Translations under genes and position numbers: made by a program
Source: Paludisphaera mucosa
GTDB taxonomy: Bacteria; Planctomycetota; Planctomycetia; Isosphaerales; Isosphaeraceae
DNA length: 64,000 nucleotides
NCBI RefSeq assembly: GCF_029589435.1
Contig: NZ_JARRAG010000002.1
Location: forward strand, 1,612,001-1,676,000
Direction: 5' to 3'
In this document: positions 7,956 through 14,604 of the stretch, piece by piece
How the letters are laid out: every line of letters begins with the position of its first letter
How positions within the stretch are numbered: position 1 is the first letter of the stretch
The notes under the pieces: model-generated
The model's database searches: none
The model's input: the letters and a program-made list of their open reading frames with translations, nothing else
What the model was told of the DNA's origin: nothing

Positions 7956-9029
7956 ATGAAGACCACCCTGATCCTGGCGGCGATCCTGATCGGCCAGGCG
8001 ACCCCGGCCCGGCCCTACCGCTCGTCGATGGGCGACTTCACGGTGGTGACGCCCCTCCTGCCGCAGGAGGACCGCAGCACCGACGCGGCGGGCGAGGAGA
8101 CCGCGACCTGGACGTGCGAGAAGGACGGCCGGCTCTACCTCATCCGTCGCGCCCCCCTCGAACAGCCCGCCGACAGGCTCGCGTTGCTCGCGATCTACGA
8201 CCGCGTCGAGCAGGCGATGGTCAAGGGCGTCAACGGCCAGGTCCTCGACAAGAAGGACCTGACCCAGGACGGCCGGCCCGTCCGCGAGATCACGGTCGAG
8301 GGCTTCATCAGGCTGCCGCACGCGAACTCGGGCGTGGCCGTCGTCCGCTTCTATCAGGCGAACGGCTTCGCCTACACCGTGACGATGGCGATGCCGGGCG
8401 ACCGCGTCGCCGATTCGACCCGCCCCGAAGTCGACGCCTACCTGAACAGCTTCCACCTCACGGCCCCTCCCGATGCGCTGGCGGAGACTCCGGCCGACAA
8501 GCCCGGCATGGCGGCGCCCAAGGACGCGGGGAAGGCCGACTGGAAGGCCTACGCGTCGAAACAGGCCCGCTACTCGATCCAGATGCCCGGCGACCCGACC
8601 GAGCAGGCGACGGAGCCCGAGATCGAGGGCCGCAAGGCCAAGGTCCTCGCCTCCGCCGTGGTCGTCCAGGGGGCGTCGTTCGCGGTCGTCGAGATGACCC
8701 TCCCCGAGGCCGTGCCCCGGAACGCCGCGTCGCAGTTCCTGGAGGCCAGCGCCAACGGCATGGTCGACGGCGTCGAGGGCCGGCTCTCGAAGTCGCGGCC
8801 GGTCACGCAGGGGACGCTCGCCGGCCGCGAGCTGGACTACGAGGGGAAGCTCTCCGACGGCTCCCCCGGCGTCTTCCGTTCCCGCGTCTTCCTGGTCGGC
8901 GACCGCTATTACAACCTCACGGTCTCCGCGCCGCCGGGGAAGGCCCCCAGCAAGGACGCGAAGCGCTTCTTCGACTCCTTCAAGCCCGAGGCCTCGAAGG
9001 ACGCCCCCAGGGCCAAACGTCGCCGCTGA
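7956..9029 (+). CDS. Exported protein of unknown function (two similar halves)
   Basis: This 357-aa protein has a Sec-type signal (MKTTLILAAILIGQATPA). The two halves look alike: each contains a short beta-rich domain of the type seen in predicted exported planctomycete proteins (GDFTVVTPLL and, later, ARYSIQMPG), followed by a conserved FYQANGFAYTVTM or VFLVGDRYYNLTV strand and a helix ending FDSF or LNSF. This suggests an internal duplication. The start was placed at the ATG at 7956 because the longer frame upstream reads through a repeat and has no signal. No catalytic motif is seen. It is followed by a membrane protease gene that has a matching promoter. Confidence 0.7.
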   Translation: MKTTLILAAILIGQATPARPYRSSMGDFTVVTPLLPQEDRSTDAAGEETATWTCEKDGRLYLIRRAPLEQPADRLALLAIYDRVEQAMVKGVNGQVLDKKDLTQDGRPVREITVEGFIRLPHANSGVAVVRFYQANGFAYTVTMAMPGDRVADSTRPEVDAYLNSFHLTAPPDALAETPADKPGMAAPKDAGKADWKAYASKQARYSIQMPGDPTEQATEPEIEGRKAKVLASAVVVQGASFAVVEMTLPEAVPRNAASQFLEASANGMVDGVEGRLSKSRPVTQGTLAGRELDYEGKLSDGSPGVFRSRVFLVGDRYYNLTVSAPPGKAPSKDAKRFFDSFKPEASKDAPRAKRRR

Positions 9030-13232: not shown

Positions 13233-13392
13233 GGCGGGGCTCGTTCCTTGGGTTCGGGCGCGGTCGTCGGCGTCTCGTGGAGATGCGCCGCCGCGCGATT
13301 CGCTGGCCTTCAGTTTACGACGCGTTCGGGGGCGCCCGCAAAGGCGAAAGGCGAGGACGAGGGCCCGGCCGGGGATCGTCGGGGCTCGAACG

Positions 13393-13452
13393 ACGAAAAG
13401 CGAAGCCCCGAGATCCACCGGTCAGGGTGAGTCTCGGGGCTTCGCTTTTCGT
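13393..13452 (-). terminator. Attenuator terminator hairpin of leuA
   Basis: Perfect 21-bp inverted repeat: 5' arm 13452-13432 and 3' arm 13413-13393 on the minus strand, with an 18-nt loop. The outer stem is CGAAAAG/CTTTTCG, so the 3' arm ends in a T-run as in an intrinsic terminator. It lies 24 nt after the stop of the Leu-rich leader peptide and 160 nt before leuA. Its 5' arm can pair instead with the leader-peptide coding region. Confidence 0.8.
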
Positions 13453-13497
13453 CTCTATCGAGAAGCTGGCCAGCCCTAAGACGACCTACCCTGACGG
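13418..13497 (-). promoter_or_regulatory. Predicted antiterminator of the leuA attenuator
   Basis: The RNA segment from 13497 to 13472 (codons 18 to stop of the leader peptide plus six bases) is complementary to the segment from 13441 to 13418 (inner 5' arm and loop of the terminator). One block pairs CCG-UCAGGGU with ACCCUGA-(C)-CGG, with one bulged base. The second pairs GUCUUAGGGCU with AGCCCCGAGAC, with one G-U pair and one mismatch. A 5 by 2 internal loop joins them. This structure excludes the terminator. A ribosome stalled on the Leu codons would leave it free to form. Confidence 0.65.
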
Positions 13498-13547
13498 CCG
13501 ATAAGGCCCAGGAGGAGGAGGTCGAGGCTGGTAAGCGACAGGATCAT
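13476..13547 (-). CDS. leuA leader peptide (leucine-rich, 23 aa)
   Basis: ATG at 13547-13545, TAG at 13478-13476. The peptide begins MILSLTSLDLLLLGLI and ends GRQGRSS. Eight of the first 15 residues are Leu, including four in a row, like the LeuL leader peptides of enteric bacteria. The ribosome-binding site is weak (GGAGCCGCCCG before ATG). The stop codon lies within the antiterminator strand, and the terminator follows 24 nt later, which is the spacing expected for attenuation by ribosome position. Confidence 0.78.
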   Translation of the reverse strand: MILSLTSLDLLLLGLIGRQGRSS

Positions 13548-13592
13548 CGGGCGGCTCCGGGTCGGGTCGCATCGGGATGATGGACCGGCAGC

Positions 13593-13622
13593 ATCCTAGG
13601 CGCAGGTCGCCCGGCCGGTCAA
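13593..13622 (-). promoter_or_regulatory. Probable promoter of the leuA leader transcript
   Basis: On the minus strand, TTGACC (13622-13617) and TAGGAT (13598-13593) are 18 bp apart. Transcription would start near 13586, about 40 nt before the leader peptide. The -35 lies in the loop of the hairpin that ends the upstream gene. Confidence 0.5.
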
Positions 13623-13644: not shown

Positions 13645-14604
13645 TCAAGCGGCCCGGCGCCGCCGCGTCGCGACGGACCGAGAAGCCCGAACTCCGGCCA
13701 GCCCGAGGCCGAGCGCCAGCAGCGAGGCCGGCTCGGGGACCGCCGTCGGGGCGAGGCCGACGAGGGCCCGGCCCTCGGCGGTCAGCGAGTAACCCATGTC
13801 CGAGAGCACCCCCACGTCCACGCCCGACAGGCTGTAGTGGATCGATTGCGAGACGACCCCGTTCATGACGTCGTTCACCAGGTCGACGCCCGGCCGGCCC
13901 GTCCACCAGCCGTTGCCCACGTGCGAGAAGTTGCCGTAGGTCAGCGGGACCGGCTTCCCGCCGTAGGCGAGCATCGCATTCTCGCCCAGATAGTAGAAGT
14001 CGCCATTCGAATCGAACCCGCTCAGGGCGTCGAACGTCGACTGGTACGGCGTCCCGTCGGAGAATCGGGGCAGGTCGCCGTTGGGGTCGCGGAACGACGA
14101 GAAGCCGAGGATGTGCCCGAGTTCGTGCAGGAAGAAGTAGTGGGAGTCGACCTGTCCCGGCGGAGGAGGGGTCGACGATCCGGGATCCGGGTTGTACCAG
14201 AGGACGTTCTCGAGCCAGTCCCTGCCGATGTTCAGGACCGCGTCGGCGCCCTGGGTGATGTCGATCCCGCGCATCAGCTTCATCGCCGCGCCCGCCTCGA
14301 AGGTGGGGAGGCCGACGGCCTGCGAGACGTCGGCGTCGTACCCGTACAGGAAGCTCCCGCCGCTGCCCGTGGGCTCGTTGGTGAAGTTCAGCTGGATCTC
14401 CAGCGTCTCATTTCGCGTGTCCAGGTAGCGGCCCCATTCGGCCGCCGCCGCATCGATCCCGGCCGTGATCCGGTCGTAGTATGCGGCGTTGCTCCCCGAA
14501 GGATCGTTGTAGTCGACCTGGACGTGGAAGTCGGCCCGCGCGTCGACGCTCGCCTGAAGGCCCGTCAGGAAGAGGATCGCCGAAAGCCCGAAACGGATGC
14601 GCAT
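13645..14604 (-). CDS. PEP-CTERM zinc metalloprotease-like exported protein
   Basis: The 319-aa protein has a signal peptide (MRIRFGLSAILFLTGLQAS), a central domain with the zinc motif HELGHILGFSSFRD (metzincin-like HExxHxxGF), and a C-terminal PEP-CTERM tail: VPEPASLLALGLGLAGV followed by a basic end. The tail is the sorting signal cut by exosortase/EpsH-type enzymes, so the protein is exported and processed. The VDYNDPSG start and D-rich segments match a PEP-CTERM-associated metalloprotease family seen in planctomycetes and proteobacteria. It probably acts outside the cell. The ATG at 14604 gives the signal peptide directly. Confidence 0.82.
   Translation of the reverse strand: MRIRFGLSAILFLTGLQASVDARADFHVQVDYNDPSGSNAAYYDRITAGIDAAAAEWGRYLDTRNETLEIQLNFTNEPTGSGGSFLYGYDADVSQAVGLPTFEAGAAMKLMRGIDITQGADAVLNIGRDWLENVLWYNPDPGSSTPPPPGQVDSHYFFLHELGHILGFSSFRDPNGDLPRFSDGTPYQSTFDALSGFDSNGDFYYLGENAMLAYGGKPVPLTYGNFSHVGNGWWTGRPGVDLVNDVMNGVVSQSIHYSLSGVDVGVLSDMGYSLTAEGRALVGLAPTAVPEPASLLALGLGLAGVRASRSVATRRRRAA

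Follow-up and report, generated by a model that had tools for sequence, protein, structure and literature searches.

Is the leuA gene of this planctomycete controlled by transcription attenuation, and if so, how widely is such a control distributed? The question arises from a short leucine-rich reading frame and a strong inverted repeat, which lie upstream of leuA on the minus strand of the window (the whole stretch of 64,000 nucleotides that was analysed). An original prediction had interpreted them as a leucine attenuator. We consider it highly probable that the region is a ribosome-mediated transcription attenuator, which senses charged leucyl-tRNA and controls leuA.

Anatomy of the leuA leader region

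The features are given below in window coordinates.

13622 to 13593, minus strand: sigma-70-like promoter, -35 TTGACC at 13622-13617, -10 TAGGAT at 13598-13593, spacer N18
13558 to 13555, minus strand: GGAG, Shine-Dalgarno-like, 7 nt 5' of the leader ATG (direct reading)
13547 to 13476, minus strand: putative leader peptide gene, 23 codons, 8 Leu, MILSLTSLDLLLLGLIGRQGRSS and stop (reading frame; Leu-rich leaders in relatives; synonymous Leu codons)
13541 to 13503, minus strand: control region, Leu codons from 13541, 13535, 13526, 13520, 13517, 13514, 13511 and 13505
13536 to 13465, minus strand: 1:2 hairpin (anti-antiterminator), Leu-codon region with stop-codon region (minimum-energy fold; state without ribosome; swap test)
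13497 to 13461, minus strand: segment 2, leader 3' end and stop codon, core GUCUUAGGG at 13482-13474
13453 to 13420, minus strand: segment 3, terminator 5' arm and loop, antiterminator partner of segment 2 (swap tests)
13453 to 13392, minus strand: putative terminator hairpin 3:4, a perfect 22-bp stem with 5 more pairs inward, UUUU at 13399-13396
13232 to 11613, minus strand: leuA, 2-isopropylmalate synthase, 539 aa, putative start ATG 13232 picked by alignment to relatives

The leader is exactly as it had been described, with eight Leu among its first 15 residues, four of them consecutive. No sigma-70-like site other than the predicted promoter TTGACC-N18-TAGGAT was detected between 13150 and 13800; shuffled sequences gave a mean of 0.0 (sd 0.1). 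Purine-rich sites like the GGAG are also found ahead of the leader in several relatives. The assignment of the downstream gene as leuA holds as well, since its product scores 732 bits against the bacterial LeuA model TIGR00973 (cut-off 598.7). The upstream neighbour (13645-14604, minus strand) presumably encodes a secreted-looking protein with a PEP-CTERM-like C-terminal tail.

The terminator stem is perfect as claimed and one pair longer than the 21 bp that had been given for it. It is a GC-rich inverted repeat of 22 bp (13453-13432 with 13413-13392), followed inward by one mismatch and five further pairs. The distance from the leader stop codon to the hairpin start, put at 24 nt in the original prediction, is 22 nt, and 160 nt separate the hairpin from the leuA ATG. 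The U-tract UUUUCGUCGUU is short, interrupted and mostly paired inside the stem, which is why a strict terminator scan of the window stretch reported no terminator.

The core of segment 2 is similar to the 3' arm of the terminator. As foreseen, the 3' end of the leader can pair alternatively with the 5' arm and loop of the hairpin in two blocks, with a duplex energy of -34.0 kcal/mol. Block 1 joins GUCAGGGU (13495-13488) to ACCCUGAC (13428-13421), and block 2 joins the core to CCCCGAGAC (13439-13431) with one A-C mismatch. This antiterminator begins past the control codons, and its formation rules out that of the hairpin. The competing 1:2 hairpin was absent from the original prediction and completes the classical four-segment layout. 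The RNA from 13586 to 13380, which had been proposed for folding, is exceptionally stable (z = -7.8; none of 200 shuffles as stable).

Conservation of the putative leader peptide in Planctomycetia

Up to 400 nt upstream of leuA were compared in 162 genomes of the class. They comprise 41 genomes of the window's family (f1), in which 41 of 45 have a leuA match at the cut-off and four have none, and 121 of the 132 other genomes with leuA. Four genomes (G067, G073, G127, G176) were kept in which a stop among the first aligned codons shows that the alignment begins ahead of the true LeuA start.

In 117 of the 162 genomes a short ORF reaches six or more Leu within a stretch of 15 codons, and in 140 it reaches five or more. 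At six Leu the reverse strand gave 3 of 162 and dinucleotide shuffles 67 of 3240; the next commonest amino acid at this threshold is Arg with 15 of 162. Some of the high Leu counts use an in-frame upstream start, which is probably not the true one. Six-Leu leaders occur at least once in 14 of 17 families, including f1 (31/41), f2 (33/40), f3 (21/37), f5 (11/16) and f11 (8/8). Judged by LeuA, the nearest named relative of f2 is Fuerstiella and those of f5 are Pirellulaceae records, while f3 fits Gemmataceae, one record of which shows 84-86% LeuA identity to it. Fewer than five Leu were counted in 22 of the 162 genomes, and the Isosphaeraceae-like genus g6 of f1 has no convincing leader or terminator.

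In genus g3 of the same family (L030 from G007, L029 from G026) the hairpin and the stop-codon motif GUCUUGGGUU are kept, and the leader has only four Leu and several Pro. It is perhaps a decaying or retuned attenuator.

Outside the Leu codons the leader peptides vary widely in sequence. Several f3 genomes, e.g. G070, G082, G091 and G168, share a C-terminal stretch of the leader past the Leu codons (PPRGRSSSR or similar).

To gauge the constraint on the Leu codons, related leaders were compared in 33 independent pairs. Of 103 changes that hit Leu codons, 61 were synonymous (0.59; expected 0.42, p = 2e-4), in contrast to 34 of 149 at other codons (0.23; expected 0.28; Fisher p = 8e-9 against Leu). 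In the other two frames, Leu changes were synonymous in only 2 of 45 and 1 of 17 cases. By this comparison of sequences, Leu codons that change stay leucine above expectation, with an effect size that is biased upward because leaders were chosen for Leu and pairs for identity.

Terminator hairpin and antiterminator pairing

When 480 nt of upstream sequence were taken, a leader with at least five Leu was present in 142 genomes. A hairpin within 130 nt of the leader stop, followed by a tract in which four or more of seven bases are T, was detected in 133 of them, with a hairpin score of at least 40 in 130 of the 133; control positions on the reverse strand gave 64 of 710. Many relatives differ from the window in having a long and clean U-tract.

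If segments 2 and 3 are functional partners, they should fit each other better than they fit the segments of other genomes. Swap tests therefore compared the RNAduplex energy of own with that of permuted partners in the 130 genomes with a hairpin score of at least 40. For 2:3 the own partners reach -21.5 kcal/mol and permuted partners -16.8 kcal/mol, and none of 5000 permutations was as good. Permutation within families gave -19.1 kcal/mol and again 0 of 5000. Taken singly, f1, f2, f3 and f5 each gave 0 of 5000 and f11 gave 232; for a control region placed 100 nt upstream the figure was 2839 of 5000. After dereplication to 72 genomes the result was 0 of 10000 both overall and within families, with four control regions at 8697, 9484, 2422 and 3143 of 10000 (the last in 45 genomes).

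Most of this signal comes from the stop-codon core. The upper block alone gave 3 of 5000 overall and is weak within families (305/5000). In the window's genus this block is altered on both sides: it reads GUCAGGGU/ACCCUGAC in G000, GCAAGGG/CCCUUGC in G002 and UCGGGU/ACCCGA in G003. In 25 aligned sequences the core columns are 80.4% paired and show covariation no better than shuffles (212/500), because the core hardly varies. The RNAalifold consensus on alignment A1 found the terminator alone, in which both partners have changed in 4 of 17 pairs.

The 1:2 pairing, tested with non-overlapping segments, is genome-specific too (0/5000 overall and within families). By family it gave 1 of 5000 in f1, 0 in f2, 12 in f11 and 121 in f3; in f5 it received no support (4345/5000).

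Judged from these alignments and energies, the antiterminator pairing is genome-specific, and it takes its place with the parts of the region, their conservation and the constraint on the Leu codons among the observed properties of the locus. The original prediction had made its case depend on conservation in leuA-bearing relatives, most of which have retained this pairing together with a Leu-rich leader and a terminator-like hairpin.

Promoter and function of the hairpin

The pattern TTGAC-N16-19-TA..[AT]T was searched upstream of the leader in the 133 genomes. It occurs in 52 of them, in 1 of 133 on the reverse strand and in 4 of 1330 shuffles. By family it was found in 30 of 32 genomes of f1, 15 of 39 of f2 and 0 of 26 of f3. 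In the window's family the leader thus has a promoter of its own; the promoters of other families may differ from this consensus.

The position of the promoter bears on a simpler explanation, according to which the hairpin is the terminator of the upstream PEP-CTERM-like gene, the leuA promoter lies further down and the leader ORF is fortuitous. The hairpin does lie between two same-strand genes and is unusually strong for a terminator, and between hairpin and leuA the window's genus keeps CGCCUUUGCGGGC, then GUA-ACU, which could be a weak promoter. Yet the conserved promoter in the Isosphaeraceae-like genomes is 5' and not 3' of the hairpin, a Leu-rich ORF stands ahead of it in most genomes of many families, and segment 2 coevolves with it. 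We therefore regard an upstream-gene terminator as very unlikely.

Slightly less credit still is due to the idea that, in place of a choice between terminator and antiterminator, the leader uses translational coupling, Rho or nascent-peptide arrest. The hairpin and U-tract at a set distance after most leaders speak against it, even though 9 of the 142 leader genomes have no detected hairpin and the U-tract of the window is poor; the wide variation of the peptide outside the Leu codons ill suits a specific arrest peptide.

T-boxes are known regulators of leu genes in other phyla, but a T-box or other ligand-binding leader RNA that senses leucine or its tRNA directly deserves hardly any credence here, since neither the window stretch nor the loci of 12 relatives gave a match at the gathering score of any Rfam family, the T-box model included. 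Up to E = 1 the sole sub-threshold Rfam match in the window stretch was ohsC (27.7 bits against 50).

Further elements were noticed between the hairpin and leuA. Five of six genomes of the window's genus have in common the sequence CGCCUUUGCGG (within 13340-13290 in the window), with GUAAACU, GUACACU or GUAAAAU some 20-25 nt further on; the sixth keeps only part of it. This motif might be a weak second promoter for basal leuA transcription. In f5 a second conserved short frame with a Leu run, e.g. ILLLAGPACGRL or GRLLLTAPAPGR, lies over a GC-rich palindrome between terminator and leuA in L051, L050, L191, L193, L187 and L189 (G049, G057, G068, G083, G107 and G112), with a shorter run in G068 and G107. 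L048, L174, L180 and L183 (G040, G071, G086 and G101) have such a frame as well, and in all these loci it is no more than 190 nt upstream of leuA. It could be a tandem second leader.

Stepwise folding and the proposed switch

Growing transcripts were folded with the bases covered by a ribosome masked. With the RNA end at 13420 and a ribosome stalled on the Leu codons, 2:3 forms, at -36.1 kcal/mol for stalls on Leu10 and Leu13 and -26.1 kcal/mol on Leu15. It stays the best fold to 13410 for the stalls on Leu10 and Leu13, and to 13405 for Leu10. A ribosome on the stop codon blocks 2:3, and the terminator is then the best fold from 13410 on. These folds match the original proposal of an antiterminator that is available while the ribosome sits at the Leu codons and covered once it has reached the stop codon. 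In the transcript without ribosome, 1:2 and 2:3 have near-equal energy at RNA end 13420, with the 2:3 fold marginally best, and at full length 1:2 and the terminator exist together.

Once the full segment 4 has emerged, no state, that with the stalled ribosome included, has a better fold than 3:4. Antitermination must therefore be kinetic, that is, a matter of timing. RNA polymerase hides roughly the last 14 nt of the transcript, so that the emerged RNA at the decision point ends about where 2:3 and 3:4 cross.

In the attenuator model, RNA polymerase would start near 13586 and transcribe the leader gene. When leucine is plentiful, the translating ribosome would reach the UAG at 13478-13476 inside segment 2 and cover this segment; 3 would pair with 4 and transcription would end near 13392. 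When leucine is short, the ribosome would stall at the Leu codons in segment 1, and 2 would pair with 3 including the terminator loop. The terminator would then be unable to nucleate while the polymerase passes, and leuA would be transcribed. If the leader is not translated, 1:2 would pair and the terminator would form. Leader translation, termination and the response to leucine are steps that we infer, and leuA is most likely fully transcribed only under leucine scarcity.

Breadth and possible coupling of transcription and translation

The pattern is broader than had been guessed: it is class-wide, with traces in other classes. Outside Planctomycetia a six-Leu leader was found in 14 of 48 planctomycete genomes with leuA (3 of 48 on the reverse strand). 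Of 80 named loci, 77 were used, since three had too little upstream sequence. Six Leu are reached in Stieleria, Roseiconus, Rubripirellula, one Gemmataceae and one Phycisphaerales record, five in Fuerstiella, and the best count upstream of leuA in Blastopirellula is two.

In the window's genome a search with model R1 (150 of 14781 first-look candidates scored) gave two matches, both this locus, which is matched on both strands because the terminator is nearly a palindrome. The next-best match elsewhere (E = 0.025) was inspected and dropped. The 520 nt upstream of ilvB in the same genome contain no ORF with at least 30% Ile+Leu+Val.

The class has probably inherited leucine attenuation of leuA from its ancestor. 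In f3, the Gemmataceae-like family, 30 of 37 genomes have a leader with at least five Leu, 26 of these have the hairpin, and the genome-specific 2:3 pairing was obtained with 24 genomes. The switch needs a translating ribosome while the polymerase is within about 100 nt, and it would hence require transcription and translation to be coupled at leuA. We lean, with some reserve, towards the wider view that the attenuation goes back to the ancestor of Planctomycetia, perhaps of much of Planctomycetota, that it is still active in Gemmataceae and that the two processes are coupled at this gene.

For Gemmata obscuriglobus, a separation of transcription and translation has been reported (Gottshall et al. 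2014, as cited in the parts consulted of PMC6212462 and PMC5287468), and one of these two reviews calls the extent of the separation unclear in those parts. The leuA attenuator bears on this open argument, in which a separation of ribosomes from the DNA has been proposed for planctomycetes, and a leuA reporter would make the question of coupling directly testable.

Comparison with known systems

In the parts consulted of PMC2965389, histidine leader peptides of hisS genes are described in Firmicutes, and the authors state that the leader-peptide systems known to them before were solely from Proteobacteria and Actinobacteria. The planctomycete leaders resemble these hisS leaders in that attenuation beyond the classical phyla was found by comparison; they differ in the amino acid and in the gene. 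Leader genes of Planctomycetes were counted by distance to the next gene, with reinitiation in view, in PMC4833913, the consulted parts of which mention neither leucine nor leuA. In agreement with the original prediction, which knew of no planctomycete case, our searches of an open-access library showed no description of an attenuator from this phylum. A leucine attenuator widespread in Planctomycetia extends known leader-peptide attenuation to such a phylum.

In the actinobacterial LEU element, too, leuA is preceded by a leader containing a run of Leu codons; this element is described, in the consulted parts of PMC1262725, as a conserved pseudoknot in which the Leu codons and the Shine-Dalgarno box of leuA pair to form the base stem. 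In contrast, the locus studied here has a putative terminator with its antiterminator some 160 nt ahead of leuA, and because of this distance between hairpin and gene a pseudoknot of the LEU type is unlikely.

In enteric bacteria the leuL leader precedes the leuABCD operon and forms its leucine attenuator. The planctomycete region shares with it the Leu-rich leader, the alternative 1:2, 2:3 and 3:4 pairings and, putatively, the terminator before leuA. It differs in that it belongs to another phylum, that its leader sequence is, as far as we are aware, unrelated, and that a single leuA follows. The leuA attenuator therefore resembles the classical leu attenuator in its anatomy and in its sequence evidence, and by this model it would also share its regulatory response to leucine.
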